Positions 2,123 to 34,510 of a stretch of DNA of 64,000 nucleotides are shown piece by piece. Every line of letters starts with the position of its first letter. The first letter of the stretch is position 1. The notes under the pieces are model-generated. The model did not search any database. It worked only from the letters and a program-made list of their open reading frames with translations, and was not told the origin of the DNA. Where the stretch lies: positions 3,549,501 through 3,613,500 of the forward strand of contig CP130629.1 of the NCBI GenBank assembly GCA_030644725.1, read 5' to 3'. A program made the position numbers and the translations under genes. This stretch comes from Candidatus Electrothrix communis. GTDB taxonomy: Bacteria > Desulfobacterota > Desulfobulbia > Desulfobulbales > Desulfobulbaceae.

Positions 2123-2183
2123 CTCATCGTTAATCGATTTTACTTAAAACTTAAATTTTTTTAATATATAAGGAGATTGTACA

Positions 2184-3323
2184 ATGGGTTACGATCCTAA
2201 AAATCCCATGGAAGGTCGTATTACTGACCTGGGACCTCGCTCGTACACGGAAATGCTGCCGCCGGTTATCGCGGCTAACAAAGGAAAATGGGACTACCAT
2301 GAGATCCTTGCTCCCGGTATCCTGATTCATGTAGGGGAAAGCGGAGACACCTGCTACACTGTTCGTACCGGTTCTCCACGTCTGGTTTCCATCGAGTATA
2401 TTCGTGAGATGTGTGATGTTGCGGATGCGCATTGTGAAGGCTACTTGCGTTTTACCACCCGTAACAACGTGGAGTTCATGACCGATTCCAAAGAGAAATG
2501 CGATGCCTTAGTCGAAGACCTCAAAGGTCGTGGCAACAAATTTCCCATCGGTGGAACCGGAGCCTGTGTTACCAATATCGTTCATACCCAGGGTTGGGTT
2601 CATTGCCATACACCGGCTACCGATGCTTCAGGTCCGGTTAAAGCAGTAATGGATGATCTGTTTGAGTACTTTGGTTCCATGACCCTGCCTGCGCAGGTAC
2701 GTATTGCTCTGGCTTGTTGTCTGAACATGTGTGGTGCTGTTCATGCTTCTGATATCGCTATCCTCGGTATCCATCGTAAGCCGCCGATGATTGATCACAC
2801 CCGTATCACCGGTGTTTGTGAGCTGCCTTTGGCTATCTCTTCTTGTCCGCTGGGTGCTGTAAAACCTGCTAAAGCTGAGGTAAACGGCGAAGAGGTCAAG
2901 ACCGTTAAGGTAAACGCCGAGCGTTGTATGTTCTGCGGTAACTGCTACACCATGTGTCCGGCTATGCCTTTGGCTGATCCGGAAGGTGACGGTATTGCTA
3001 TTTTGGTTGGTGGTAAGGTCTCTAATGCCAAGTCCGCTCCGAAATTCTCCAAGCTGGTTATTCCGTTCCTGCCCAACACCCCGCCGCGTTGGCCGGAGAC
3101 TGTTGATGCTGTTCGTAAAATCGTTGAAACGTATGCGAAGGATGCCAAGAAGTACGAGCGTATCGGCGAGTGGGCTGAGCGTATCGGTTGGGAGAAGTTC
3201 TTTGAAAAATGTGAGATTCCGTTCACCGATAAGTCTATCGACGATTACCGTCTGGCTTATGATACATGGCGGACATCCACTCAGTTCAAGTACACCAACG
3301 CTACAGACGCTTACACCAAGTAA
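2184..3323 (+). CDS. dsrB: Dissimilatory sulfite reductase beta subunit
   Basis: DsrB, partner of DsrA in the alpha2beta2 enzyme; it carries the catalytically active siroheme in characterised enzymes. Length is 379 residues. Visible motifs are [20 protein letters not shown] near residue 130, [14 protein letters not shown] near 175, and a ferredoxin domain [14 protein letters not shown] near 250. AAGGAG precedes the ATG. It is followed after 82 bp by dsrD; a stem-loop lies in that gap. No sign of decay. Confidence 0.98.
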
Positions 3324-3345
3324 GATTCTGCGTATAGCATAAAAA

Positions 3346-3375
3346 AACCCGGCATAGATTTTTTCTTGTCGGGTT
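3346..3375 (+). terminator. dsrB-dsrD intergenic stem-loop
   Basis: Stem AACCCGGCA (3346-3354) pairs with 3367-3375 (one G-U) around a T-rich 12-nt loop, immediately after dsrB. There is no clean T tract after the 3' arm, so it may be a partial terminator or mRNA-processing/stability element that sets dsrAB above dsrD, rather than a full stop. Confidence 0.55.
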
Positions 3376-3405
3376 CTTATAAACTCAGCCACTGAGGTAC
3401 AGATT

Positions 3406-3651
3406 ATGGTCATGAGTGTTGAAGAAATCGAAGCTGCTATCATCGAAAAGGCGACCAAGTCACCGAAGCCGCAGCTGTATGTCAAGGATTTTTACAAATG
3501 CGATCCTGACAGCAAACCCCGTGCAATAAAAAATATTGCTAACGGCTTGGTGAAAAAGGGAGAACTGATGTTCTGGTCCTCCGGTTCCACCACCATGTAT
3601 GCACGTCCAGATCGTATTAAGGATGAAGAGGGCGCTGAAGGGATAAACTGA
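3406..3651 (+). CDS. dsrD: DsrD, allosteric activator of DsrAB
   Basis: Small winged-helix protein (81 residues) found next to dsrAB in sulfate reducers. Recent work on other species reports that DsrD activates DsrAB sulfite reduction; its presence generally indicates reductive Dsr. The sequence MSVEEIEAAIIEKATKSPK and the C-terminal MFWSSGSTTMYARP are typical. Start: ATG 3406 has GAGGT seven bases upstream; ATG 3412 is possible and would remove two residues. It is followed by a strong terminator, so dsrABD is the complete unit here; dsrN is not adjacent. Confidence 0.95.
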   Translation: MVMSVEEIEAAIIEKATKSPKPQLYVKDFYKCDPDSKPRAIKNIANGLVKKGELMFWSSGSTTMYARPDRIKDEEGAEGIN

Positions 3652-7278: not shown

Positions 7279-8622
7279 ATGTCTGATGTCTCTTTGCCGG
7301 ATGCACAACCGGATGTACAACGCATAGTAATAACCGGAGTGGGCCTGACTGCACCCGGAGGGTCTAATACCCTTGCGGATTTTCGTGAGCAGGTTCTTGC
7401 GGGTCGAAGCGGGATCTCCACTATTGATCTGCGCTATATGGATACCTATCCTGCTGGGATCTGCGAGTTCCCGGAAACCAAGTACCGTAAAAAAAAGGAA
7501 AACAAGCGGGGGACCAGAGCCGGTTGTATCGGGGTGTACTGTGCCGGAGAGGCCTTGGCTGATGCCGGGATAGATTTCTCCGAGTATGATCGCAGCCGCA
7601 CCGGGGTCTATATGGGCCTGACCGAACACGGCACGGTGGAAACGGAAAATGAGGTCTATAATATAAGTAAGTTTGACTATAATGTCGATTACTGGACCCA
7701 TCATCATAATCCGCGAACCGTTCTCAATAATCCGGCTGGCGAAATTACTATGAAGTTCGGGATCACCGGTCCGCATTACGCGGTCGGGGCAGCCTGTGCT
7801 GCTGGTAATGCCGCTTTGATCCAAGGTTCCCAGATGCTTCGTCTCGGCGAGGTCGACCTTGCCCTCTGCGGCGGCTTATCCGAATGTGTCGGCTCTTTTG
7901 GCATCTTTGCCAGCTTCCGTGCCCAAGGAGCTTTGGCTGAGCATGAGGATCCGACCAAGGCCAGTCGCCCACTGGATCAGGATCGGAACGGGATCGTTAT
8001 TTCTGAAGGCGGTTGTGTCTTCACCTTGGAGCGCCTGGACAAGGCCCTTGCCCGAGGGGCAAAGATCTACGGGGAAGTTGCTGGCTATGCCATGAACTCC
8101 GATGCCCGTGATTTTGTCCTTCCCCATGGCCCACGTCAGGCCGAGTGCATCCGTTTAGCTCTTGAACGGGCCGGATTGACTCCAGAGGATATCAGCATTA
8201 TTAATACCCATGCCACCGGCACCAAGCAGGGTGATGTGGAGGAGTGCAAGGCCTTGGCAGAGGTCTTTGCCGGTTGCTCCGCTGTCAGAAGCAATAACAC
8301 AAAGTCCATAATCGGGCACGCTATGGGCGCTGCTGGAGTTTTAGAATTGGCTGCAAACCTCTCATCTTTTGAAGATAATTTTGTCCATCCGACTATTAAT
8401 TTGGATAATCCTGATCCAGCCTGCGCCCTCCCAGGCTTGGTTGCCGGGAAGGCGGAGAAGGTTGAGCAGGTAGAGACAATTCTTAATAATTCTTTCGGCA
8501 TGGTAGGAATAAATTCAGTACGTCATTATCAAGAGATTTATGGCAGACTAAACCTTTTTATGGTACTGTTATTCCCTTTTGCCAAAAAAGGGTTGGCAGA
8601 TATTTTCACCATAAAGGGTTGA
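7279..8622 (+). CDS. Beta-ketoacyl-ACP synthase (FabF-like), apparent 3' frameshift
   Basis: Condensing enzyme that joins malonyl-ACP to an acyl primer. The catalytic triad is visible: Cys in AVGAACAAGNA (about 173), His in NTHATGTKQGD (about 311) and His in SIIGHAMGAAG (about 346). The fold is complete to GMVGINSV, where a FabF-type protein should end in a short strand such as VIIKRF. That reading (VIIKRFMAD, stop at 8549-8551) is present one base out of frame after position 8521, so the 33-residue tail predicted here is probably an artefact of a single inserted base, real or from sequencing. It starts lipid locus A with a dedicated ACP and CrtI-like flavoproteins. It differs from housekeeping FabF enough that I give no symbol. 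Confidence 0.88.
   Translation: MSDVSLPDAQPDVQRIVITGVGLTAPGGSNTLADFREQVLAGRSGISTIDLRYMDTYPAGICEFPETKYRKKKENKRGTRAGCIGVYCAGEALADAGIDFSEYDRSRTGVYMGLTEHGTVETENEVYNISKFDYNVDYWTHHHNPRTVLNNPAGEITMKFGITGPHYAVGAACAAGNAALIQGSQMLRLGEVDLALCGGLSECVGSFGIFASFRAQGALAEHEDPTKASRPLDQDRNGIVISEGGCVFTLERLDKALARGAKIYGEVAGYAMNSDARDFVLPHGPRQAECIRLALERAGLTPEDISIINTHATGTKQGDVEECKALAEVFAGCSAVRSNNTKSIIGHAMGAAGVLELAANLSSFEDNFVHPTINLDNPDPACALPGLVAGKAEKVEQVETILNNSFGMVGINSVRHYQEIYGRLNLFMVLLFPFAKKGLADIFTIKG
8551..8620 (+). terminator. Nested stem-loop between ketosynthase and ACP genes
   Basis: Outer arms AACCTTTTTATGGT (8551-8564) and ACCATAAAGGGTT (8608-8620) are nearly fully complementary and enclose an inner CCCTTTT/AAAAGGG hairpin. 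The outer stem begins at the restored stop of the ketosynthase, which supports the view that the longer frame is not coding. It could adjust the ACP:synthase ratio. Confidence 0.6.
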
Positions 8623-8669
8623 AAGAAGAGCGAACGAATATTAAAGAGTATTTATATTGAGGAACCGGC

Positions 8670-8921
8670 ATGACCCGTGATGAAATCAAGGATATAATCC
8701 TTGAAATTATTGAAGATATAGATGAGGATGCGGATTTCGATGATTTGGATGCGGATCAGCCTCTTCGAGATCAGTTAGACCTTGATTCTATGGATTTTCT
8801 TGATATCGTGATGGAGCTGCGGAAACGCTATAAGCTTCAGATTCCGGAAGAGGACTATCCTGAGCTCGCCACCTTGACCAGTTGCGTCAACTATCTTGAG
8901 CCTAAACTGAAAGACGTTTAA
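8670..8921 (+). CDS. Acyl carrier protein of lipid locus A
   Basis: An 83-residue acidic helical carrier protein. The phosphopantetheine attachment serine is in LDLDSMDFLDIV (Ser about 41). The motif differs from housekeeping AcpP (usually DSLD), as is common in ACPs dedicated to secondary lipid or polyketide pathways. GAGG lies just upstream of the ATG. It sits between a ketosynthase and a CrtI-like oxidoreductase, so it probably carries the chain that these enzymes extend and desaturate. Confidence 0.92.
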   Translation: MTRDEIKDIILEIIEDIDEDADFDDLDADQPLRDQLDLDSMDFLDIVMELRKRYKLQIPEEDYPELATLTSCVNYLEPKLKDV

Positions 8922-9013
8922 TCAACCAAGGCATTCCGTTGAAATCGTTGAACTATGCAGCGGGGAGGGTGGTTTCATAATAACGCTTAAATCTCTTTTC
9001 CCGTATTTCCGTT

Positions 9014-10402
9014 ATGGCTGATTACCAGCTCATCATTATCGGCGGCGGCCTTTCTGGGTTGGCCGCCGGTATCCGTTCAGCTCGTTTCGGGCAGAAAACT
9101 CTGATTGTTGAGGGGCATAGCCTCCCCGGTGGTCTGAATTCCTATTATTACCGCCAAGGTTATCTGCTGGAGACCGGTCTTCATGCGATGACCAATTTTG
9201 CCGCTCAGGGGAGCAAGCATGCGCCCTTAAACAGGTTGTTCCGCCAGCTGAAACTTTCCCGCAAGAAATTTATCACCCACGAGCAGATGGGCTCAGAGGT
9301 GATTTTCCCCCAGGCTTCACTTCGATTTTCCAACGAGCTTGATCTCCTCTGCGAAGAGATAGCACGTCATTTTCCGGCAAGCATTGATCGATTTCGGGCA
9401 ATGGTTAAGGAAATTGATGCCTATGATCCCTTTGCCGAGGTGCCCTGGCAATCGGCTCGGAATTTTCTCCGTGATCGCCTTGCCGAGCCTCTGCTGGAGG
9501 ACATGCTCCTGCTGCCTCTGATGGTGTACGGCAATGCTGAAGAGCATGACATGGATCTGGGGCAGTTTGCCATCATGTTTCGGGCACTCTTTCTGGAGGG
9601 CTTTTTTCGTCCGGAAGGAACGATTAAGGACCTGATCGACATGCTGTTGGAGCAGTATGCCCAATTCGGGGGGGAACTGCGCTTTCGTGCTTCTGTTGCT
9701 GCAATCATCAATAAAGATGATACGGTACAGGGGATTCGCTTGGAAAACGGCGAAGAGATCACCGCAGATGCGGTCCTGTCGACGGTGGGAATTCCAGGAA
9801 CAGCTCAATTAAGCGGCTGGCCCCTGGACATTGACGAGTATATTGGTAGAATGACCTTTATGGAGACCATCTCCATGCTGCCGGAACTGCACCTGCCGCC
9901 GGAAAGGGCAGGGCGGACCATCCTGTTTTACAGCCTCAATGACGAGTTGAGGTATCATCGACCTGCCGAGCCCATTGATCCTTCCTGGGGTGTGATCTGC
10001 TTTCCGGATAATTTCCAGGGGCTTGAGCGTCAAAACGATGCACCGACCCAGGTTCGGGTGACCAATGCGGCCAATTATGACCTCTGGCAGCAGGCAGCGG
10101 CCGACAGGGAGCAGTACCGGCACCTTAAAGAAGCATGCGGGCGGCAGTCGGTAGCTGCGGTGAGTAAGATCCTTGGCAATTATACCCAGGGTGCGATCTT
10201 TCAGGACAGCTTCACGCCCATGACCATTGAGCGATTTACGGAAAAAAGGGGTGGAGCCGTGTACGGTAGCCCAATCAAGATTAAGAGCGGCAGAACCCCC
10301 TGGTCGAACCTCTTTATTGCGGGCACGGATCAGGGCTATCTGGGTATTGTCGGGGCCATGCTCAGTGGCGTGACTATTGTGAACCAGCATCTGTTGACCT
10401 GA
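9014..10402 (+). CDS. CrtI/phytoene-desaturase-like FAD oxidoreductase (locus A, first)
   Basis: A 462-residue flavoprotein with the dinucleotide-binding motif IIGGGLSGLAAGIRSARFG at the N-terminus, an FAD-contact LPGGLNSYYYRQGYLLETGLHAM, and a C-terminal LFIAGTDQGYLGIVGAMLSG typical of the CrtI/retinol-saturase amine-oxidase superfamily. It would add or remove double bonds on an acyl or polyene chain. It is one of three such proteins in the window, all beside ACP/ketosynthase genes. The exact substrate is unknown. Cotranscription with the downstream CSD-DUF1294 gene (15-bp gap) is likely. Confidence 0.85.
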   Translation: MADYQLIIIGGGLSGLAAGIRSARFGQKTLIVEGHSLPGGLNSYYYRQGYLLETGLHAMTNFAAQGSKHAPLNRLFRQLKLSRKKFITHEQMGSEVIFPQASLRFSNELDLLCEEIARHFPASIDRFRAMVKEIDAYDPFAEVPWQSARNFLRDRLAEPLLEDMLLLPLMVYGNAEEHDMDLGQFAIMFRALFLEGFFRPEGTIKDLIDMLLEQYAQFGGELRFRASVAAIINKDDTVQGIRLENGEEITADAVLSTVGIPGTAQLSGWPLDIDEYIGRMTFMETISMLPELHLPPERAGRTILFYSLNDELRYHRPAEPIDPSWGVICFPDNFQGLERQNDAPTQVRVTNAANYDLWQQAAADREQYRHLKEACGRQSVAAVSKILGNYTQGAIFQDSFTPMTIERFTEKRGGAVYGSPIKIKSGRTPWSNLFIAGTDQGYLGIVGAMLSGVTIVNQHLLT

Positions 10403-10417
10403 ACGGAGAATAGAATA

Positions 10418-11056
10418 ATGGGTTGCAAAGGGACATTAACCTCTTGGGATGATGAAAAGGGATTCGGTTTTATTACCCCTGAAGGGGCCGGGAAACGAAT
10501 TTTTGTCCACATTAAGTCCTTTACCAACCGCAGACAGCGACCTGAACTTCATCAGATAGTGAGTTATAGCTTGTCTTCGGATAATCAGGGCCGCCCTTGC
10601 GCAGTGCAGGTTGCCTTGCCTCATGAAAAACGTAAACTGAAGATGAAGAAAGGTACCTGCTCCTATACAATCGCTTTTTTCTTTCTTGCAGCTGTCACCT
10701 GTTCATTTTTTGCCGGAAAAATACCGCTTCTGATTATCTGTCTGTATTTCATTATCAGTCTACTGACCTTTCTTGTTTACGCGAAAGATAAATCAGCAGC
10801 AAAGAAAGGGGCGTGGCGGACACCGGAAAGTACCCTCCATCTGTTTTCACTGTTCGGGGGCTGGCCGGGTGCGCTTGTTGCGCAACAAACATTACGTCAC
10901 AAGTCGAAAAAGCAATCGTTTCGTTTTGTGTTTTGGTTAACGGTCCTGCTGAATTGCGCTGGATTGTTCTGGTTATTTACACCGACGGGAGCGGCTAAGC
11001 TCAATCTGCTGATAGAGAAAGGCCGTGAAATTGGCCTGCTGAAAAATATTTTTTAA
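10418..11056 (+). CDS. Cold-shock domain-DUF1294 membrane fusion
   Basis: 212 residues. Residues 1-66 form a cold-shock/S1-like domain (GTLTSWDDEKGFGFITPEGAGKRIFVHI retains RNP-type aromatic residues). Two hydrophobic helices then lead into DUF1294 with LHLFSLFGGWPGALVAQQTLRHKSKKQSFRFVFW, its characteristic block. This domain pair is widespread but of unknown function; membrane-anchored nucleic acid binding is an inference. It lies inside lipid locus A, although the family is not known to act in lipid synthesis. Confidence 0.88.
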   Translation: MGCKGTLTSWDDEKGFGFITPEGAGKRIFVHIKSFTNRRQRPELHQIVSYSLSSDNQGRPCAVQVALPHEKRKLKMKKGTCSYTIAFFFLAAVTCSFFAGKIPLLIICLYFIISLLTFLVYAKDKSAAKKGAWRTPESTLHLFSLFGGWPGALVAQQTLRHKSKKQSFRFVFWLTVLLNCAGLFWLFTPTGAAKLNLLIEKGREIGLLKNIF

Positions 11057-11107
11057 GAATTTCTCTATGGTTTGCCCCCTTTTTTCCTTAAACGTATTTT
11101 CATATCC

Positions 11108-11719
11108 ATGAAAGAAAAATACATGCTGAGGGAGGTTTTTGATGCCCTGCCTTCCATGGTCTTTGTGGTCGATCAGGATGTTAGGATTCAGGAATATAAT
11201 GCGGCGGCAGAGGAATTTATGCGCTCCGGGCGAAACACCATTCTTCAACAGCGTGCCGGAGAAATACTTCATTGTATTCATTCTAAAAAAGCACCAAAAG
11301 GGTGCGGAAGGTCGCACAAATGCTCTGATTGCATTATTAGAAATTCCGTCACTCAGGCCTTGCAGGGCAAGCGTGTTGTTCGCCGGCGGACTCGTATGGA
11401 AATCATGCAGAATGATCATAAGACCGAGATATACGCATTAGTCACGGTATCACAGTTTTCCTTTCGCGGCAGTCCCCATGCCCTTTTGGTGATTGAAGAA
11501 ATCAACGAGATAGCTGAATTGTACAATATGATCTTCATCTGTCCGGTTTGCGGGAAAGTACAGGACGATAAGAAAGTCTGGATGCAGGTTGAGGCATATT
11601 TCAAAAATAACTGGAATGTCGAATGCTCACACGGCTATTGTCCTGATTGCTTTAAGATGGAGATGAAAAAAATAAAATCATCTTCAAAGAACAGGAAGAA
11701 TTTGCCGATTATTGATTAA
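11108..11719 (+). CDS. PAS-domain protein with cysteine-rich insert and zinc-finger tail
   Basis: About 203 residues from ATG 11108 (a TTG at 11072 extends the frame, and neither has a good ribosome site). The N-terminal PAS domain (FDALPSMVFVVDQDVRIQEYNAAAEEFM) is followed by a CGRSHKCSDCIIR cluster, the end of the PAS sheet (HALLVIEEINE), and a C-terminal zinc-ribbon-like part with CPVCGKV and YCPDCF. No kinase or output domain is present, so it is probably a sensor or adaptor. The cysteines suggest redox or metal sensing (inference). It lies between two flavoprotein genes of locus A. Confidence 0.7.
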   Translation: MKEKYMLREVFDALPSMVFVVDQDVRIQEYNAAAEEFMRSGRNTILQQRAGEILHCIHSKKAPKGCGRSHKCSDCIIRNSVTQALQGKRVVRRRTRMEIMQNDHKTEIYALVTVSQFSFRGSPHALLVIEEINEIAELYNMIFICPVCGKVQDDKKVWMQVEAYFKNNWNVECSHGYCPDCFKMEMKKIKSSSKNRKNLPIID

Positions 11720-11805
11720 AGCGGATTATTTCGCGGGAAAAACGATTCAACAGCCTTGGGTAAAGCACTCTGGGTAATTTGTTAACATGGAAAGAGTTTA
11801 TTGCT

Positions 11806-13212
11806 ATGTCCTGTACACCTCTTGACAAGGTTCAAAACAGCTACGATGTTATTGTTATCGGCTCCGGTCTCGGCGGCCTGACCTGTGCCAACCGCCTTGC
11901 CAAGGCGGGCCATGCGGTTCTCCTGCTGGAGCATCATATCCAGTTGGGGGGGTTGGCGACCTGGTTTAAGCGGGGAGGGCATATCTTTGATGTCTCGCTG
12001 CATGGTTTTCCGCACGGGATGATCAAGACCTGCAAAAAATACTGGTCCAAGGAAATTAAAGACTCCATTGTCCAGCTCAAAAAGATTGCCTTTGATAATC
12101 CTCAGTTTTCCCTGACCACCACCTTTGCCAAGGATGATTTTGTTCGCATCCTCCATGAGGATTTCAAGATTGATCGGACCACAGTGGATGATTTTTTCAA
12201 CACAGTCAGGGCGATGAATTTTTATGATGATCAGGGCATGACCACCCGGGAGCTTTTTGAGCAGTTCTTTCCGGGGCGATCCGATGTCCATCGCCTCCTT
12301 ATGGAGCCCATTACCTATGCCAACGGCTCTACGCTGGATGAGCCCGCCATTACCTACGGGATTGTCTTTTCCAATTTCATGAGTCGGGGTGTGTTCACCT
12401 TTGAGGGCGGTACAGATAAACTCATCGGCATGATGGCGGATGATCTGGAAAGGAGCGGGGTGACCGTCTGCACCGGGGCCAAGGTCGAGCGGGTCTTGGT
12501 TGATAACGGCAAAACCAGGGGCGTCCTTGTCGGAGGTCGGGAAATTACGGCCAAGGCTGTGGTCTCTAATTCCGGCATCACCAATACCATTGATAACTTA
12601 GCTGGACGAGAAGCCTTTAGCGCTGATTTTCTTTCTCGTTTCGATAAGGTGGTGGTGAATAACTCTTCCTGCCAGGTTTATTTTGGTATTCGTAAGGGCG
12701 AGTCCTTCCCGGATATAGGAGATCTGCTCTTTACCTCAACGTCTGAGAAATTTTCCTCAGAAGAAATGCGGCGCATGGACACCAAGAGCCGCACCTTCTC
12801 GGTCTACTATCCTAAGACCCGTCCAGAAAAGCCGGATTACACCGTGGTTGCCTCTATGAACGGTAATTACGACGACTGGGCAGGGCTGGATGATGTTGCC
12901 TATAAAGAAGCCAAAGAGGTTATGGTGGAGCGTTGCTTTGTTGATTTGGAGCGATATATCCCCGGCATCCGTGATAAAGTGGATACCATTTCTTCAGCCA
13001 CACCCAAGACTTTTAATCGCTACACCCTCCATACCAGAGGCACCTCCTTCGGCACCAAGTTCGAGGGGCTGGATATCTCCCGTTCTCTCTTTAAAGAGGT
13101 GGGCGGTCTGTTTCATGTGGGTTCGGTGGGAATTATCATGAGTGGCTGGCTGGGGGCGATCAATTACGGGGTGATTGTGGCCAATGATGTGGATGCGTAT
13201 GTCCGTGCATAA
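11806..13212 (+). CDS. CrtI/retinol-saturase-like FAD oxidoreductase (locus A, second)
   Basis: About 468 residues from ATG 11806; the frame also extends to TTG 11779. The FAD motif VIVIGSGLGGLTCANRLAKAGH is followed by LLEHHIQLGGLATWFKRGGHIFDVSLHG. The C-terminal FGTKFEGLDISRSLFKEVGGLFHVGSVGIIMSGW completes the FAD site. It is a second, divergent member of the same desaturase/isomerase superfamily as the gene at 9014, which argues for a multi-step desaturation pathway. The locus ends here; a palindromic REP-like element follows. Confidence 0.85.
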   Translation: MSCTPLDKVQNSYDVIVIGSGLGGLTCANRLAKAGHAVLLLEHHIQLGGLATWFKRGGHIFDVSLHGFPHGMIKTCKKYWSKEIKDSIVQLKKIAFDNPQFSLTTTFAKDDFVRILHEDFKIDRTTVDDFFNTVRAMNFYDDQGMTTRELFEQFFPGRSDVHRLLMEPITYANGSTLDEPAITYGIVFSNFMSRGVFTFEGGTDKLIGMMADDLERSGVTVCTGAKVERVLVDNGKTRGVLVGGREITAKAVVSNSGITNTIDNLAGREAFSADFLSRFDKVVVNNSSCQVYFGIRKGESFPDIGDLLFTSTSEKFSSEEMRRMDTKSRTFSVYYPKTRPEKPDYTVVASMNGNYDDWAGLDDVAYKEAKEVMVERCFVDLERYIPGIRDKVDTISSATPKTFNRYTLHTRGTSFGTKFEGLDISRSLFKEVGGLFHVGSVGIIMSGWLGAINYGVIVANDVDAYVRA

Positions 13213-27311: not shown

Positions 27312-27578
27312 ATGCAGGAATTGACAGAAGAACTGAAAAGAAAACTTATTGATATCTTGAATCTTAGCGACCTAGAGCCGGAAGATTTTGACGAGCAGGC
27401 CCAATTGGTCGGCGGAGAACTCGGCATCGACTCCATAGATGTTTTGGAAATGGTGGTTATGGTTGAGAAAGACTACGGGATCATTATTAATAACCAGGAA
27501 GTCGGCCAGAAGGTCTTTGCCTCTCTTGCCTCCCTTGTAGAGTATATTCAAGAAAATTCGCAGGGAACATCCTCTTGA
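27312..27578 (+). CDS. Acyl carrier protein of lipid locus B
   Basis: 88 residues from ATG 27312 (MQELTEELKRKLIDIL); the frame extends upstream to 27243 without support. The phosphopantetheine serine is in GELGIDSIDVLEMVVMVEKDYGI. The DSIDVLE variant is seen in ACPs of polyketide-, aryl-polyene- or ladderane-type loci. The stop overlaps the TTG start of the next gene (TTGA), so carrier and ketosynthase are translationally coupled. Confidence 0.92.
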   Translation: MQELTEELKRKLIDILNLSDLEPEDFDEQAQLVGGELGIDSIDVLEMVVMVEKDYGIIINNQEVGQKVFASLASLVEYIQENSQGTSS

Positions 27579-29848
27579 CAATCCGACCGGTATATATCTG
27601 CGGCACCGGGATCATCAGCCCGCTCGGTGCTGATTATGCGTCAACGGAAGCAAAACTGCGGAAAGGGAACACAGCGATCCGCCCGTTGGACCTCTTTTCC
27701 CTGGTCCGGGGAAATCCTCTGCCTGTGGGGCAGGCCCCCCTGCTTGAAGATAGGGGAGATAGCACACTCTCTCTGCCGAGAAGCCACCGTTTGGCTCTTG
27801 CAGCAGCCAAGCAGGCTCTTCATAATAAGGGTGGTAAGGAGGGCTTGGCGTCAGGCTCCTCTTCAGAGGTCACTCCAGATGTCGTCATTCTCGGCACCAC
27901 CACCGGTGGTATCCTCACCACAGAAGAGCTGCTGTACGAACAGGTGAAGGAAAAACCGGAAAAATCGCGTTTCCGGTATCATGGTTTGCATACTATTGCC
28001 GCCTGTATCGCTGAGGCATGTCATTGCACCGGCCCGGCCCTGACCGTCTCCACGGCCTGCGCTTCCGGGGCTGTGGCCCTGGCTCTGGCCCTGCGTATGC
28101 TTCGCAGCGGTCAGGCGGAGACCGTGTTGGCAGGCGGGGTGGATTCGCTCTGTCGTCTCACCTATTTCGGTTTTCATTCCCTGCAATTGGTTGATCGAAA
28201 GGGCTGCAAGCCCTTTGATCAGGATCGGCAAGGCATGGCTGTTGCCGAAGGTGCAGGCATGCTTTTGCTCTCCACTGTCAAGCCCAAGCATTGCCGGGCC
28301 CGCTTGCTCGGTGCTGGCCTTTCCTGCGATGCCTATCATCCAGCGGCTCCCCATCCCGAGGGCAGGGGAGCCTTTGCCGCAATGGAGGCAGCCTTGGCTG
28401 ATGCTGGGCTGGCTCCTGATGATATCGACTATATCAATCTGCACGGCACCGGCACTCCGGATAATGATCTGGCGGAATCCAAGGCGGTGCGCAGATTGTT
28501 CAACACTGTGCCCCCGCTTTCCTCGATTAAGGGTGCCTCCGGTCATTCGTTGGCTGCTGCCGGGGCCATTGAGGCTGTCGTCTCGGTGATCAATGTTACA
28601 CAGGGCTTGCTCCCCGCCAATACCGGTCTTCAGCAGGTAGATCCAGCCCTGGGCCTATCTCCGTTGACCAAACCCCTTGAGCAGCCGACCAAGGCGGTGC
28701 TCTCCAATTCCTTCGGATTCGGTGGCAATAATGCCTCTGTGGTTATCGGAGCGCCGAATTTACCGGAAAAAGCGCATGGACAAACGGGTAAGGTGCTGGC
28801 GGTTCATGGCTGCTCCTGCCTGACCGGGGCCGGTGATCTGGCTGCTACCCTTGAATGCCTGCAAAACGGGGAATCCGCTGCCGGTTGCGCAGAGCAGGAC
28901 GTCATTGCAAAGAACCTCCCACCTCGTCTGATCCGCCGTTTGAAGCGGCTGCCGAGAATGACCTTGTCCTTGGCCCAGGAAGCGGTTCAGGCTGTTCAGA
29001 ATAATGAAGGGGGCGAGTTGGAGAAACCAGCAGCCGTCTTTATGGGCACTGGTTGGGGAGCACTTTCTGACACCTATGATTTCTTGACCCGGCTGCGGGA
29101 ATCGCAAGAGCAATTCCCCAGTCCCACGGATTTTGTCGGGTCTGTGCATAATAGCCCGGCCAGCCAGGCAGCGATTCTCTTCGGGGCGACTGGTCCCAAT
29201 ATCACCACCAGCGGGGGCGATTACTCCTTTGAGCAGGCCCTGTTGGCGGCCCAGCTCCAGCTTGATGATTCGATGCCTGCTCTTATCCTTGGTGCTGACG
29301 AGGGGCATTCTGAATTCTCACCGCTCTTTGATGCTTCGATTCCTCAGGGAGCCTCTTCGGCTGATCTTGCTGACGGCGGTGGGGCCTTGTTGGTGAATCG
29401 GAGTATGGAAGAGGCGATCTGTAGTCTACGTCTTCCCTTTTACCGGAGCAGTAGGGGTGAAGATCCGATGAATGCTCTTATTAAAACGCTTCACCACGAC
29501 TCCCAAGAAGTTGGAGATGCCGGAGATCTCAACAAGTACGCCCTTGTTTTGGTTGGTATTCCGGCAGCCATGGAAAAAGAGGGAGAAGAACAGCTTGCTC
29601 GTTTTATAGAACAGGCCTCGCTCACCGCCCCGGTCATTCGTTATCGCAAACAGATCGGCGAGTTTGCTTCGGCATCGGCTGTGGCTGCGGCCCTTGCTGT
29701 CTCTTTCATGGCAGCAGGGCGTATTTTCGGCACCTTGACAGAAACAGAGGATATCCTCTTGGATGATCAGAATAATGAACAGAAGAATACCATTCTTGTC
29801 TTGGGTCTGGGTGAATACATCACGGCAATGGAGTTTGAACGACTATGA
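27575..29848 (+). CDS. Double ketosynthase: KS fused to chain-length-factor-like domain
   Basis: 757 residues. Residues 1-400 are a complete ketosynthase with Cys162 (VSTACASGAVAL), His in NLHGTGTPDND and His in GASGHSLAAAGA. Residues 410-757 form a second thiolase-fold domain of the Ketoacyl-synt_2 type (FVGSVHNSPASQAAILFGATGPN, then TTSGGDYSFEQALLAAQ), which lacks the catalytic Cys and resembles chain-length factors and ApeC-like proteins of aryl polyene loci. A KS-CLF fusion in one chain is unusual; such factors are normally separate subunits. TTG start overlaps the ACP stop; the 3' end overlaps the radical-SAM gene by 4 bp. Confidence 0.9.
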   Translation: MTIRPVYICGTGIISPLGADYASTEAKLRKGNTAIRPLDLFSLVRGNPLPVGQAPLLEDRGDSTLSLPRSHRLALAAAKQALHNKGGKEGLASGSSSEVTPDVVILGTTTGGILTTEELLYEQVKEKPEKSRFRYHGLHTIAACIAEACHCTGPALTVSTACASGAVALALALRMLRSGQAETVLAGGVDSLCRLTYFGFHSLQLVDRKGCKPFDQDRQGMAVAEGAGMLLLSTVKPKHCRARLLGAGLSCDAYHPAAPHPEGRGAFAAMEAALADAGLAPDDIDYINLHGTGTPDNDLAESKAVRRLFNTVPPLSSIKGASGHSLAAAGAIEAVVSVINVTQGLLPANTGLQQVDPALGLSPLTKPLEQPTKAVLSNSFGFGGNNASVVIGAPNLPEKAHGQTGKVLAVHGCSCLTGAGDLAATLECLQNGESAAGCAEQDVIAKNLPPRLIRRLKRLPRMTLSLAQEAVQAVQNNEGGELEKPAAVFMGTGWGALSDTYDFLTRLRESQEQFPSPTDFVGSVHNSPASQAAILFGATGPNITTSGGDYSFEQALLAAQLQLDDSMPALILGADEGHSEFSPLFDASIPQGASSADLADGGGALLVNRSMEEAICSLRLPFYRSSRGEDPMNALIKTLHHDSQEVGDAGDLNKYALVLVGIPAAMEKEGEEQLARFIEQASLTAPVIRYRKQIGEFASASAVAAALAVSFMAAGRIFGTLTETEDILLDDQNNEQKNTILVLGLGEYITAMEFERL

Positions 29849-31206
29849 GGGTATTACTGATCTCCCCCAATACCTTGACCGTGCCCTACCCGGTGTACCC
29901 CATCGGGCTTGATTACGTGGCAAGCTCGATCCCGGCGCACCATGCAGTTCGTATTGCGGATTGCAATGTCCTTTCCCGTGAGGCATTGGGAGAGCTTCTT
30001 TCCGAGTATCAACCTGAAGTAATAGGTATTTCCTGTCGGAATATTGACAATACTGAGGCCGGAGATCCACTCTGCTTTATCAATGTCTATAAAGAGCTGG
30101 TCTCTTGGTTGCGTTCCCGTACGCAGGCGATCCTGGTTTGCGGTGGTAGCGGCTTCAACATCATGCCGGAAAAGATCCTGCCCTATTTTGATGTAGATTA
30201 CGGCCTTGTCGGCGAGGGAGAGCGATTCGGCCTGCTTGTGGAGGCCCTGGACAAGAAGCAGGAACCGAGCGAGATCCCTGGCGTGCTGGCGGCCTCCTCC
30301 TGCTCGCCTGACATCCCTACGGAGAAGGCCCCTCCCTGGGACGGTCAGCGTCATCGTACTTTCCAGCAGGAGGCAGAGCATTATCGCTTTTATCTTGAGC
30401 ACGGCGGCATGCTCAATCTCCAGACGAAACGGGGTTGTTCCTTCCGCTGCGTGTACTGCCCGTACCCCCATATTGAGGGGAAAAAACATCGCCTGGTTGA
30501 TCCCCAACAGGTGGCAAAAACCGCACTGGAACTGGAAGCGGCTGGGGCAAAATATCTCTTTCTCACCGATTCGGCCTTTAACTCGGATATTGACCACAGC
30601 CTTGCTGTCGCCAAGGCCTTTCAAAAGGCCGGGCTGACAATCCCCTGGGGCGGCTTCTTTGCCCCGATCAAGCTGCCTGTGGACTATTTCACGGTCATGG
30701 CCGATGCCGGGCTTGCCCATGTAGAATTCGGTACAGAATCCCTGTCCGATGCCATGCTGAAGAATTACAGGAAACCTTTCCGCGTGCAGGAGGTCTTGAC
30801 CGCCCATCAGCAGGCCCTTGATGCTGGTTTACATACGGCCCATTATTTTCTCCTCGGAGGACCTGGGGAATCTGCGGACACGATCAACGAGAGCCTGGAG
30901 AATCGTGAGCAGCTCAAGAAGACCGTGACCTTTTACTTTGTCGGGATCAGGATCTATCCTGGTACCGGGCTGTACGATATCGCCTTGGAAGAGGGGAAGA
31001 TCAATGAGACAACGGATCTCCTCCAACCTGTTTTCTATGAGCCTGATCTGATTACTCGGGAGCAGATTGATGAGATGGTCACGGAACGGGCCGGGAATCG
31101 GATCAACTGGATCGTTGGCTCAGGAGGGGCTCGGGCCGCTGAGATCGTCAGTAAAATGCACTCCAGAGGCTATGTCGGTCCTCTTTGGGAGTACCTGATA
31201 CGGTGA
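29845..31206 (+). CDS. B12-binding radical-SAM protein (lipid biosynthesis type)
   Basis: 453 residues. An N-terminal cobalamin-binding-like fold (MRVLLISPNTLTVPYPVYPIGLDYVASSI; EVIGISCRNID) without the DxHxxG base-off motif is followed by a radical-SAM barrel with CxxxCxxC in TKRGCSFRCVYCPYP (about residue 197) and a C-terminal part with YFVGIRIYPGTGLYDIA. Database naming of close relatives is, as I recall, lipid biosynthesis B12-binding/radical SAM. It could methylate, cyclise or rearrange an unactivated acyl chain. It overlaps the ketosynthase gene by 4 bp, so it belongs to the same operon. Confidence 0.88.
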   Translation: MRVLLISPNTLTVPYPVYPIGLDYVASSIPAHHAVRIADCNVLSREALGELLSEYQPEVIGISCRNIDNTEAGDPLCFINVYKELVSWLRSRTQAILVCGGSGFNIMPEKILPYFDVDYGLVGEGERFGLLVEALDKKQEPSEIPGVLAASSCSPDIPTEKAPPWDGQRHRTFQQEAEHYRFYLEHGGMLNLQTKRGCSFRCVYCPYPHIEGKKHRLVDPQQVAKTALELEAAGAKYLFLTDSAFNSDIDHSLAVAKAFQKAGLTIPWGGFFAPIKLPVDYFTVMADAGLAHVEFGTESLSDAMLKNYRKPFRVQEVLTAHQQALDAGLHTAHYFLLGGPGESADTINESLENREQLKKTVTFYFVGIRIYPGTGLYDIALEEGKINETTDLLQPVFYEPDLITREQIDEMVTERAGNRINWIVGSGGARAAEIVSKMHSRGYVGPLWEYLIR

Positions 31207-31229
31207 ACCGCACCTCAAGGCATAAGGTT

Positions 31230-33014
31230 ATGAAATTTCCTTACGGCATCTGCGATTTTCAGAAAATCATCAAGGAAGGATATTTTTACGCCGATCGGAC
31301 CGAGTTGATCCCCCTGCTGGAAGAAGCCGGTGACCAACTCCTGTTTCTCCGTCCCCGCCGTTTCGGCAAGAGTCTGCTCCTGTCCATGGTGGAAAATTAT
31401 TATGATTTGGCCAAGGAGGATAGGTTTGAAGAGCTCTTCGGTCACCTGAATATCGGAAAAAATCCGACCCCCAGGCATAACAGCTATTTTGTTTTGAAAT
31501 GGGATTTTTCAGCGGTCAGCCCCCAAGGGGCAACAGAAGAAATCAGGCAGAATCTGCATGATTATCTCAATGATCGCATGGATTTTTTCTCTGCTTATTA
31601 CCGTGATCGGCTAACGACTGAAATCCGTCTTGATAGGAAGAACGCCCTGTCTTCCTTTCAGTCCCTGCTCAATGCGGTCCAGCAGAGTGGACACCCGCTC
31701 TATCTGTTTATTGATGAATATGATAACTTCGCCAATGAAGTGATGGTTAGTGCAGAGCAACGGGGAGGAACAGATTATGCTACCCTGCTTTCCGGGGAAG
31801 GAGCGCTGAAGGCCCTGTTCAAGGTGATCAAGTCCGCCGCAGCAGGCCAGGGGCTGGACCGGGTGTTCATCACTGGCGTGTCGCCCGTGGTGCTGAGCGA
31901 TATCACCAGCGGCTATAATGTTGCGGAAAATATTTACCTGTTGCCGGAATTCAACCATCTTTGCGGCTTTCTTCAGGAAGAGATTGCGGAGCTGCTAAAG
32001 GAAATCACGGTGCATTGCGGTCTGTCGGAAATCAAAGCAACCGAGGCCTTGGAGCTGATGCGCAGCTTGTACAACGGCTATTGCTTCAGTTCACGTACGC
32101 AGAAGCGTATGTATAATCCAACCTTGGCTCTTTATTTTCTCAAGTCCTTTCAGCGTGACTGCGAATATCCGCAAAAATCCCTTGACAGTAATATGGCTAT
32201 GGATAGAGGGAGAATTCGCAGTATTGCCCGTATGCCCGGAGGGCAGCAGCTTGTCATGGAGGCATTGGCGGAGCAGCCCTCTGTCAGTATCCCGGAACTG
32301 GCTGATCGCTTCGGCGTGCAGGACATGCTTGCTGCTCGCAAAGATACGACCTTCATGGCCTCGCTGCTCTATTATTTCGGGGTACTGACCATCGGGGGGA
32401 AAGATGATTTCGGTAAAATCGTTCTGAAGATCCCCAACCTGGTGATCCGCAAACTGTATGCCGAGCGGATCCGGGACTCCTTGCTGCCGGATAATCAAAG
32501 CATGGAAACCGCCCGGCAGGTTGCGGAAGCCCTGTACCAGCAGGGAAATATCCGCCCTCTATGTGATTTCGTTGAGCAGAAATACTTCAAGATTTTTCAT
32601 AACCGTGATTATGCCTGGAGCAACGAGCTGACCCTGAAGACCGCTTTTTTGACCCTGCTCTTCAACGATACCTTTTACATCATGGAATCGGAGACTGCGC
32701 TGGAACGGTCGTATGCCGATCTCACCATGATCGTGCGTCCGGATATGCGTCAGTACGGCCTGCTGGATATCCTGCTGGAATTCAAATATGTCTCCTTGAA
32801 AGAAGCAGGGCTGAACGGAGAACAGCTTGAGCGGCTCGGTCCAGAACAACTCGGACAACTGCCTGCGGTACAAAGAAAACAGGAGGAAGCACGGCAGGGA
32901 TTGACCCGTTATCAGGGCAAGCTCCACGATAAATTTTCCGATCTGCTTAATCTGCGCAGCTTCAGTGTGGTTTCGGTAGGATTTGAACGACTGGTTTTCA
33001 CCGAAGAATCATAA
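31230..33014 (+). CDS. AAA-ATPase-like / PD-(D/E)XK nuclease (DUF1703) protein
   Basis: About 594 residues from ATG 31230 (MKFPYGICDFQKII); a TTG at 31185 would overlap the previous gene. The N-terminal AAA-ATPase_like domain has FADRTELIPLLE and the P-loop-like LRPRRFGKSLLLSMVENYY, with LYLFIDEYDNFANE as Walker B. The C-terminal PD-(D/E)XK nuclease-superfamily (DUF1703) part contains GLLDILLEFKYVSLKEAG. The family is expanded in many anaerobes with unknown role. It interrupts lipid locus B and has a small upstream gap, so it may be a cargo insertion. Confidence 0.88.
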   Translation: MKFPYGICDFQKIIKEGYFYADRTELIPLLEEAGDQLLFLRPRRFGKSLLLSMVENYYDLAKEDRFEELFGHLNIGKNPTPRHNSYFVLKWDFSAVSPQGATEEIRQNLHDYLNDRMDFFSAYYRDRLTTEIRLDRKNALSSFQSLLNAVQQSGHPLYLFIDEYDNFANEVMVSAEQRGGTDYATLLSGEGALKALFKVIKSAAAGQGLDRVFITGVSPVVLSDITSGYNVAENIYLLPEFNHLCGFLQEEIAELLKEITVHCGLSEIKATEALELMRSLYNGYCFSSRTQKRMYNPTLALYFLKSFQRDCEYPQKSLDSNMAMDRGRIRSIARMPGGQQLVMEALAEQPSVSIPELADRFGVQDMLAARKDTTFMASLLYYFGVLTIGGKDDFGKIVLKIPNLVIRKLYAERIRDSLLPDNQSMETARQVAEALYQQGNIRPLCDFVEQKYFKIFHNRDYAWSNELTLKTAFLTLLFNDTFYIMESETALERSYADLTMIVRPDMRQYGLLDILLEFKYVSLKEAGLNGEQLERLGPEQLGQLPAVQRKQEEARQGLTRYQGKLHDKFSDLLNLRSFSVVSVGFERLVFTEES

Positions 33015-33022
33015 AGCGCCCT

Positions 33023-34510
33023 ATGCCTTCTGATAAAAAAATACTCATCATCGGCTCCGGTATCGGCGGCCTTAGTACGTCAATTATCCTAGCAAAGCTG
33101 GGGTTCGAGGTCACCGTGCTGGAGAAGAATGCTCAGGCAGGCGGATTGATGCGCAGCTATCCCCGTGACGGTATTGAATGCGAAGTCGGGGTGCATTATC
33201 TGGGCTCTCTTGATAAGGGACAAGTTCTGCGGAAATTCTTTGATTATCTGGGAGTCACTGAGGATATTCCGGTCACCAGAATGGGGGAGAGTGGCATCAT
33301 TGATCGTTATATCTTTGATGCTTGCGGCAGTCAGCCTGTACAACCCACAGTCTTTGATGTACCGCAGGGAATGTCCGCCTTTGCGAAAAATCTCAATCAG
33401 GCCTTTCCCCTGGAACGAGAGGCAATCGCCGAAATCCTTTCCCATTTGCGCAAGGCGAGCGAGCAGTTGCACCGCCTAGATTTTCTCTATGGGACGGAAA
33501 ATAATTTTTCCCTGCTTGATCAGGCAGACTCCTTTGGTGAAATCCTCAATCAACTGAACTGCTCTCCGCGGCTTCGCAGTGTCTTGGCCGTGCCTTCCTG
33601 CTGGATCGGCGTCCCCTTGGAGGATTGTCCGGCCTATTATCATAATATGGCCCTGGCCTCTTACCTCTCATCCTCGTGGAGGCTGGATTGCAGCGGTTCG
33701 GATATGGCTGATGCCTTCAGTCGTCGTTTCCTGGAATTGGGTGGAAAGATTATAACCCGAGCCGAGGTCACCGGGCTGGAGGTTGAAGAGCGAGTCGTCA
33801 AAGGCGTTCGCTTGCGATCCGGAGAGTATCTCCCGGTTGAAACGGTGATCGGTGCCGTACATCCGAAAGTGGTTTTGCAGATGTTGCCTGAGGGCGCTGT
33901 GAAACCATCCTACCGACAACGAATCAGCAACCTGCACGATACCCACGGGATTTTTGCAGCTCATGTTCGTGTTGATGCGGAGAGCCATCCCGAGATCCCC
34001 TATAATATTTTCAATATTGATACGGACGAGAAAGGGAATGTTCCGGATCTGAAGTATTATCAAATCCGTAAAACGGAAAAAGAAGGTGCTAACCTCCTTT
34101 CAATCCTGACTTCAGGCAAGGATGAACTATGGGCACCCTGGGGGGGGACCGGCACCGGTCGGCGTGGCAAAGAGTATAGCGCTGTAAAAGAGCAGCATGC
34201 TGAGCAGTTACTTGAAGAGGCTGAGACCTTATTCGGTCCTTTTAAAGGAGCCAAAATCCTTGATACCTACACTCCCCTGACCATACGGGATTGGGTTAAT
34301 AGTCCCGGCGGGAGTGCTTACGGGGTCCAGCGCTCTTCCAGTCAGATGCTGTCTGCTGCTTTGCTGAACCGCACTGCTGTTAAAGGCCTGTATCTTGCCG
34401 GTCAAAATGTATTGGCTCCCGGTATCATCGGTGCTATCATGGGATCATTCAGTACGGTGAAATTAATTGTCGGAGCAGAGGCGTTTAAAGAAGACTGCTT
34501 GATGCAGTGA
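33023..34510 (+). CDS. CrtI/retinol-saturase-like FAD oxidoreductase (locus B)
   Basis: 495 residues. FAD motif ILIIGSGIGGLSTSIILAKLGFEVTVLEK, then QAGGLMRSYPRDGIECEVGVHYLGS, and the C-terminal GLYLAGQNVLAPGIIGAIMGSF. The HYLG pattern resembles all-trans-retinol saturase and polyene desaturase relatives. The 8-bp gap to the preceding gene suggests one operon. Together with the flavoproteins at 9014 and 11806 it gives three desaturase-like enzymes for the two lipid loci. Confidence 0.87.
   Translation: MPSDKKILIIGSGIGGLSTSIILAKLGFEVTVLEKNAQAGGLMRSYPRDGIECEVGVHYLGSLDKGQVLRKFFDYLGVTEDIPVTRMGESGIIDRYIFDACGSQPVQPTVFDVPQGMSAFAKNLNQAFPLEREAIAEILSHLRKASEQLHRLDFLYGTENNFSLLDQADSFGEILNQLNCSPRLRSVLAVPSCWIGVPLEDCPAYYHNMALASYLSSSWRLDCSGSDMADAFSRRFLELGGKIITRAEVTGLEVEERVVKGVRLRSGEYLPVETVIGAVHPKVVLQMLPEGAVKPSYRQRISNLHDTHGIFAAHVRVDAESHPEIPYNIFNIDTDEKGNVPDLKYYQIRKTEKEGANLLSILTSGKDELWAPWGGTGTGRRGKEYSAVKEQHAEQLLEEAETLFGPFKGAKILDTYTPLTIRDWVNSPGGSAYGVQRSSSQMLSAALLNRTAVKGLYLAGQNVLAPGIIGAIMGSFSTVKLIVGAEAFKEDCLMQ

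Follow-up and report, generated by a model that had tools for sequence, protein, structure and literature searches.

The locus examined here, locus B, lies within a stretch of 64,000 nucleotides (the window) of the Candidatus Electrothrix communis genome, a single contig of 4.85 Mb (genome G000, contig C1, positions 3549501-3613500), and its genes are all read from the forward (+) strand. A dedicated acyl carrier protein (ACP) of 88 amino acids (aa) at 27312-27578 (ATG start; PF00550, 33.3 bits) is followed by a 757-aa fusion of a ketosynthase (KS) with a chain length factor (CLF) at 27575-29848 (TTG start), in which the KS half spans 27575-28759 and the 362-aa CLF half 28760-29848 (PF13723, 41.7 bits). 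The third gene, at 29845-31206, encodes a 453-aa B12-binding radical S-adenosylmethionine (rSAM) enzyme (PF02310 and PF04055). An earlier note on this DNA, made from the sequence alone, described four genes in overlapping frames. The overlaps hold for ACP, KS-CLF and rSAM (4 bp each, TTGA at the ACP stop and ATGA at the end of KS-CLF) but not for the CrtI-like gene further downstream, because an AAA-ATPase_like gene separates it from the rSAM gene.

The 4-bp overlap between KS-CLF and rSAM was found in 30 of the 31 locus-B-type rows in which both genes could be read, with start codons picked nearest to the query start, a choice biased toward such overlaps. Counted over distinct loci it was present in 25/26, after five duplicate records had been dropped (L067, L068, L079, L084 and L088, which repeat L040, L041, L043, L045 and L039, respectively); the overlap is missing only in L080, where the KS-CLF frame is broken. 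The spacing between ACP and KS-CLF was -4 in 21 rows, -1 in 8 and +9 in 1 (30 rows). On the sequences compared, the coupling of the three genes is conserved rather than fortuitous, and the preservation of the overlaps among relatives bears out the proposal that the genes are translated as one unit. Known RNA elements at gathering score were absent from the window and from L100, L040 and L043, and the repeats near locus B were short imperfect pairs only.

The KS half contains Cys162, His290, Lys319 and His324, all invariant in the 29 rows of the KS-CLF alignment (A2; 28 of 33 rows plus the window), whereas the motif-aligned position of the active-site Cys in the CLF half was occupied by Asp (24), Glu (2), Ser (2) or Asn (1) and never by Cys (0/29). 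The model of the whole 757-aa protein, with a predicted local distance difference test score (pLDDT) of 86.3 and a predicted template modelling score (pTM) of 0.93, gave as its best Foldseek match the KS-CLF of PfaC from a polyunsaturated fatty acid (PUFA) synthase (6riw; TMq 0.77, E 2.2e-41, 906 columns). The likeness to PfaC concerns the single-chain KS-CLF fold. PfaC carries its KS-CLF inside a multidomain protein with dehydratase domains; the locus B protein, unlike it, has KS and CLF domains only, without a dehydratase match (Pfam, NCBIfam), and ACP and dehydratase are encoded by separate genes.

The proteins were further compared with a set of 17 proteins of the Escherichia coli CFT073 aryl polyene (APE) cluster together with FabF, FabG and ACP of the own genome; RefSeq names of the CFT073 genes are generic, and the Ape letters are those we take them to bear. 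Within this set the KS half matched best to ApeO, the CLF half to ApeC and the ACP to ACP1 (44%), and the CLF-half hidden Markov model found ApeC at 2.1e-11 (set of 17 proteins). In a midpoint-rooted KS tree, the KS halves, ApeO and sister KSs formed one clade (support 100/99). The ACP itself has its phosphopantetheine Ser41 within a DSID motif (codon 27432-27434) and a single PDB match at E<=1e-6, 9ls6 (3.2e-12), presumably a protein of APE origin. Its best NCBIfam model, PRK09184, scored 67 against a cut-off of 70, and the KS half likewise remained below the cut-off of PRK09185 (363.7, cut-off 407). What had been called a double ketosynthase does have two KS-type halves, but the second is a Cys-less CLF and not a second active KS. 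Because of this half, the APE matches and tree, and the PfaC-like predicted fold, the protein is, on alignment and model, a KS-CLF of polyene/PUFA type in a single chain. The suggested fatty-acid-like assembly line is supported, as one of aryl-polyene/PUFA type.

The rSAM enzyme narrowly passed the NCBIfam model TIGR04072, rSAM_ladder_B12 (382.6 bits, cut-off 360; model positions 1-443). Verified locus-B types (G000, G008, G014 and G032) scored 353-382, with the orthologues in G014 (356.1) and G032 (353.1) under the cut-off, against 482-651 for the 15 best members. Scores with other models were BzaD 178 (cut-off 450), TsrM (TIGR04428) 129 (cut-off 500) and HpnJ 84 (cut-off 578). The predicted structure (pLDDT 90.0) was nearest to TsrM (6wte/6wtf; Z 38.5, root-mean-square deviation 2.4, 449/453 residues), followed by AprD4 (Z 30.3), MgmA (28.8) and OxsB (28.2), and the top order in Foldseek was alike. 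In a tree of rSAM proteins the 14 locus-B-type rows formed one clade (100/100); L123 and L127, on very long branches and probably in wrong frames, were kept, together with further rows flagged for long branches.

TsrM methylates C2 of tryptophan, and in the sections seen of the two TsrM papers its Arg69 is described as keeping the cobalt without a lower ligand and its Glu273 as blocking S-adenosylmethionine (AdoMet) at the cluster, so that no 5'-deoxyadenosyl radical arises (PMC8992657, PMC13331322). In the rSAM alignment (A1; 42 of 50 readable rows plus the window, 43 rows), Arg65 (codon 30037-30039), aligned by sequence with TsrM Arg69, was Arg in 43/43 rows, and the CxxxCxxC motif for the [4Fe-4S] cluster (Cys198, Cys202 and Cys205; 30436-30459) was also present in 43/43. 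The Glu273 position held Ala (29), Val (10) or Thr (4), so that AdoMet may be free to ligate the cluster and radical chemistry would be possible. The locus B enzyme thus resembles TsrM in its predicted whole-length fold and the conserved Arg, differs in the absence of Glu273 (from 43/43 rows) and lies far below the TIGR04428 cut-off; in it, a cobalamin environment like that of TsrM would be paired with a cluster open to ligation by AdoMet. These findings do not imply chemistry on an unactivated chain, as the earlier note had it: TsrM, the closest of the solved structures, methylates C2 of tryptophan. The same note would have abandoned a lipid role if the closest characterised homologues acted outside lipid metabolism, which is true of the rSAM enzyme (TsrM, AprD4, MgmA) and false for KS-CLF (PfaC, APE), and so applies to half of the case.

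In relatives the trio belongs to a two-armed superlocus with its arms on opposite strands. Arm 1 comprises an AMP ligase, a further B12-binding rSAM (B12-rSAM3), a lipoprotein, LolA, FabG and an ApeP-like dehydratase (best match in the APE set, ApeP). Arm 2 runs from ACP, KS-CLF and B12-rSAM, sometimes with CrtI, through a second ACP, rSAM350 and rSAM332 to two KSs, a 4HBT thioesterase and a PS-DH-type dehydratase, as in polyketide synthases (PKS). Among testable loci outside the own genus, the divergent dehydratase was found in 23/26, FabG in 23/25, B12-rSAM3 in 20/21, rSAM350 in 15/20 and rSAM332 in 15/19. These are lower bounds, because the dehydratase of L051 (broken rSAM) and the rSAM350 of L052 (cut rSAM) exist but missed the distance windows. 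The cultured Desulfogranum mediterraneum has the whole superlocus except CrtI, its 16 genes lying on contig NZ_AUCW01000015.1 of strain DSM 13871, and the locus of G008, a genome of the same family as G000, equals that of D. mediterraneum DSM 13871 (L043 = L079).

Outside the genus, identities were 79-89% for B12-rSAM3 and 82-88% for rSAM332 versus 48-63% for complete KS-CLF copies, so that the slow-evolving core of the pathway would be the other rSAMs. Furthermore, in 9/9 loci with TIGR04072 rSAMs of a sister type (L053-L060 and L063), a homologue of B12-rSAM3 (57-61%) formed a tandem with the rSAM, and five of the nine (L053, L055, L056, L060 and L063) also had, within a few kb, an ACP and a KS that is not fused. 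We read these loci, from their gene content, as a second architecture of the same pathway.

All superlocus parts are kept in the Electrothrix genome, at four places including locus B. The distal locus (C1:3251154-3262189) holds the second ACP, rSAM350, rSAM332, the two KSs, the thioesterase and the PKS-type dehydratase. The AMP ligase (53%) and B12-rSAM3 (83%) are near C1:3.76 Mb, and the lipoprotein (42%), LolA (54%), FabG (81%) and the ApeP-like dehydratase (60%) near C1:3.83 Mb. Here about 4 kb, including ORFs of 475 and 633 aa, separate FabG from the dehydratase (C1:3831055-3836394; L146:7056-12395). Next to FabG there is a fragment of the dehydratase (query 102-152), and next to the dehydratase one of FabG (query 13-39), a pattern that looks as it would after an insertion with duplicated ends. 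Also in the distal locus are an ApeR-type KS (mKS1; best match ApeR, with which it grouped at 100/100), an acyltransferase, a B12-rSAM of another kind and a SPASM-rSAM. None of these four had a close match in 37 locus-B-type stretches, and the extras were matched in the sister-type loci L054, L058 and L063.

A set of 57 genomes, the own included, was searched for the locus. Matches to the rSAM at E 1e-40 or better occurred in 28/57, of which 18 were orthologues (at least 58% identity) and 10 other types (30-39%); the 18 include incomplete copies cut by contig ends (G010 and G028) or with a broken frame (G025). Together with 25 named records from a single-protein query, which returns close relatives only (Desulfobulbaceae, Desulfocapsaceae, Desulfobacterales, Deltaproteobacteria, Desulfogranum and plain bacterium), these 18/57 genomes dispose of the concern that the locus might be confined to one strain. 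TIGR04072 was over its cut-off in 63/297 genomes of a phylum sample and in 0/14 controls, with five candidates scored per genome. On viral contigs, searching with the rSAM alignment yielded 5 pattern matches, none of them a relative. Plasmids gave 52 records, all below 60% identity, the top one at 27.8% to a tsrT.

The rSAM co-occurs with other superlocus genes (Fisher tests, which ignore shared ancestry). Fifteen of the 17 genomes with rSAM332 (4e-9), 15 of the 18 with a close B12-rSAM3 (2e-8) and 11 of the 12 with CrtI (2e-6) are among the 18 rSAM genomes. The rSAM is present without rSAM332 in G017, G025 (whose contig holds rSAM350) and G029, without B12-rSAM3 in G010, G029 and G040, and without CrtI in seven genomes; conversely, rSAM332 stands without it in G050 and G056, B12-rSAM3 in G023, G050 and G056, and CrtI in G056. 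Within the genus, four of eight members (G000, G003, G005 and G007) hold all four genes and the other four (G001, G002, G004 and G006; completeness 97, 93, 89 and 69%) hold none. In G000 the four genes sit at three distant places, yet they have been retained jointly.

The CrtI/CrtD-like FAD enzyme of locus B (33023-34510; 495 aa) has an amine-oxidase fold (PF01593, 78.9 bits) and passed no curated cut-off for carotenoid desaturases in the NCBIfam scan, the best carotenoid model being CrtD (94.8, cut-off 549.7) and crtI_fam giving 66.4 (cut-off 238.1). Its gene is present in 12/57 genomes and in 11/18 of those with the rSAM, and is a facultative partner of locus B. One could suppose that CrtI-like gene and rSAM belong to separate pathways and are neighbours by accident in the own genus, since a 1.8 kb AAA gene lies between them and CrtI is directly downstream of rSAM in just 4/29 loci outside the genus. 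We regard this as improbable: all but one of the CrtI genomes carry the rSAM, the twelfth (G056) has rSAM332 and B12-rSAM3, and CrtI comes immediately after rSAM in L039, L040, L070 and L085, as well as in L073 as far as its contig reaches.

The intervening AAA-ATPase_like/PDDEXK-like gene (31230-33014, likely ATG at 31230; PF09820, 168 bits) is contained in a TTG-started ORF (31185-33014) that overlaps the end of rSAM; the match to PDDEXK_9 was below the cut-off (21.3 versus 25.5). It was rejected as a pathway member: at the locus it was found in 3/28 other loci tested, all of the own genus, PF09820 has 22 matches over cut-off in the genome (several partial, one of them inside locus B), and the sister species L037 and L038 have two tandem copies. 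Downstream of the CrtI-like gene are a RecD-like gene and then a gene with a sub-threshold cytochrome-P460 match.

With a probability of about 0.57, we read locus B as encoding the core steps, elongation and tailoring, of an anaerobe lipid pathway of APE type (a highly reducing type II PKS), in which an ACP-bound polyene is tailored by a cobalamin rSAM. The dedicated ACP would hold the growing chain and the KS-CLF fusion would extend it, while the FabG-like ketoreductase and the ApeP-like dehydratase, coded elsewhere at C1:3831061-3836391, would leave double bonds in place, with no enoyl-reduction step, to give the ACP-bound polyene. The cobalamin rSAM, made from the same coupled message, would then form a C-C bond on the polyene chain; methyl transfer to an sp2 carbon seems to us roughly twice as probable as ring closure. 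The AMP ligase and second B12-rSAM, the two short rSAMs, the KS pair, the thioesterase, the PKS-type dehydratase, LolA and the lipoprotein may serve to prime and extend the product, to release it and to deliver it, with membrane lipid as the probable destination, and the CrtI-like enzyme could be an optional desaturase or isomerase.

The APE system shares with this gene set a KS with a Cys-less CLF, an ACP, an ApeP-like dehydratase, a FabG-like ketoreductase, a thioesterase, an AMP ligase and, weakly, a LolA-like protein, as well as the ApeR-type KS and acyltransferase beside the distal locus. As far as the consulted part of the APE study goes, ApeO-ApeC alone yields the fully elongated polyene in vitro, and ApeC is one thiolase fold (PMC8358021). 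Several results weigh against an APE-type assignment. ApeC is a separate 240-aa protein, in contrast to the longer, fused CLF of locus B; ApeO with the KS halves alone had support of 80/70; FabG gave 187 bits to ApeQ versus 205 to housekeeping FabG; and the two KSs of the superlocus match FabF better than they match either KS of the APE cluster. The second ACP, moreover, is nearer to housekeeping proteins than to APE ones. The APE methyltransferase, DUF3261 and one hypothetical protein were matched in 0/40 loci, and MMPL, LolA, ACP2 and ApeD in 1/40 each. The TsrM model score of the rSAM falls far short of membership, and the co-occurrence tests leave out common descent. Finally, it is only in this genome that the ApeR-type KS and acyltransferase are neighbours of the distal locus, and the 37 stretches gave no close match to them; with no ApeR-type KS in the superlocus, the parallel is weaker there and our estimate was lowered from 0.60 to 0.57.

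A plain APE pigment with an aromatic-acid primer, in which the B12-rSAM stands in for the E. coli cluster's SAM-dependent methyltransferase, would account for the lack of that methyltransferase in all 40 loci, and also for the AMP ligase, whose best NCBIfam model is 4-coumarate-CoA ligase and whose best APE match is ApeH. The ligase score is, however, far under the cut-off (106.5 bits versus 334.7), and the several extra rSAMs and the KS pair, like the occasional CrtI-like enzyme, have no counterpart in the E. coli APE cluster, so that we consider a pigment of this kind distinctly unlikely.

The APE-type reading touches on ladderane biosynthesis, which is still unproven. The earlier lead to anammox ladderane candidates and APE clusters has held, with the rSAM passing TIGR04072 and the KS half in the ApeO clade. 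In the portions seen of the two main papers, Rattray (2009) gives the B12-rSAM Kuste2803 as cyclisation candidate and Kuste2805 as a FabB/KS without Cys (PMC2649909), and Javidpour (2016) groups an rSAM, a FabF, a non-canonical FabB and an 'ACP synthase' in a single cluster, kuste2802-2805, reports that CrtI-like activity was not seen with two anammox CrtI-like proteins, and states that anammox bacteria were not in pure culture (PMC4790861). Excerpts of later work call cobalamin-rSAM cyclobutane formation "proposed" and list a 'ladderane synthase' as non-methylating (2026 preprint, PMC13142503), give the ring-forming enzymes as not identified (an anammox methyltransferase study, PMC9821293), and report antiSMASH 'ladderane' clusters in Desulfobacterota, there without lipids (PMC9902471). 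As described in print, the anammox clusters (kuste2802-2805, kuste3335-3352 and kuste3603-3608) are like the present genes in combining B12-rSAM, KS and Cys-less KS, and in having their rSAMs, special ACPs, CrtI-like enzymes and paralogous KSs divided among several clusters. They differ in that KS and CLF are unfused there and fused here, that the Cys position is Phe in Kuste2805 and mostly Asp here, and that the host of locus B is not an anammox organism.

It is conceivable from these parallels that the rSAM acts on an all-trans polyene by ladderane-like ring closure, possibly to cyclobutanes, as proposed for Kuste2803. Such cyclisation is a special case of the APE-type reading in its first steps and a rival in the last. 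The TIGR04072 pass and the similar, unfused set in kuste2802-2805 (PMC2649909, PMC4790861, both in part) speak for it, as does the replacement of Glu273, by which AdoMet may ligate the cluster and allow radical chemistry. On the other hand, the locus-B-type TIGR04072 scores lie well under those of the best members, the nearest fold is that of a methylase, and Desulfotalea psychrophila, in the passages seen of Rattray's account, showed no ladderanes though it has a kuste3335-3352-like locus (PMC2649909). We hold ring closure to be unlikely, if still to be reckoned with.

The passages on D. psychrophila report C31:8 and C31:9 hydrocarbons, with polyunsaturated hydrocarbons (PUHC) at 5% of lipid, and mention neither PKS nor PKS-type PUFA genes as found (PMC2649909). 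The described DP1853/DP1855 locus resembles ours in having radical enzymes, KSs, a membrane protein and a ligase, with synteny to Kuenenia, and the distal locus here is similar to it in content, on that description alone. A pathway to PUHC (C31:8, C31:9) or to an anaerobic PUFA would agree with the presence of PUHC given the stated lack of PKS-type PUFA genes and with the PfaC-like predicted fold of KS-CLF. In the same passages D. psychrophila is reported to have no gene syntenic with Kuste2803 (PMC2649909), so that the PUHC producer may lack locus B, and we judge this product very unlikely.

Should the APE-type KS-CLF serve a ladderane-related route, which we rate as a long shot, Desulfobulbaceae and their kin, the cultured D. 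mediterraneum included, would make ring-bearing or otherwise rSAM-built polyene lipids, and the anammox clusters would be the same superlocus in scattered form. On that view a polyene from a type II PKS, and not a desaturated fatty acid, would be the precursor of ladderanes; reading KS and Cys-less KS as an APE-type KS-CLF would supply the polyene source that the published scheme leaves to an unspecified desaturase. If B12-rSAM and KS-CLF form one module, a sulfate reducer in culture offers a place to test it. In the literature searched we saw no paper that unites APE and rSAM genes with those of Desulfobulbaceae in a single cluster, and we do not claim that the superlocus is new; added here are the APE-type KS-CLF elongation, the contiguous superlocus, and the joint retention or absence within a genus whose genes are scattered.

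A second set of genes, locus A (7279-13212), holds a KS, an ACP and two CrtI-like flavoproteins and adjoins alaS. The best matches of its KS and ACP are housekeeping proteins rather than APE ones, and its first flavoprotein is present in 45/57 genomes, which makes it look like a core rather than an accessory function of the order. Locus A was rejected as a partner of locus B: the flavoprotein varies independently (17/18 genomes with locus B and 28/39 without it), and the pairing drawn previously falls with it. The accompanying count of two KS systems, two special ACPs and three flavoproteins is correct within the window; in the genome, 10 ketoacyl-synthase matches were found in 9 genes. At the left edge of the window (842-3651) are two NIR_SIR proteins, DsrAB-like, together with a small ORF that we take to be possibly DsrD.

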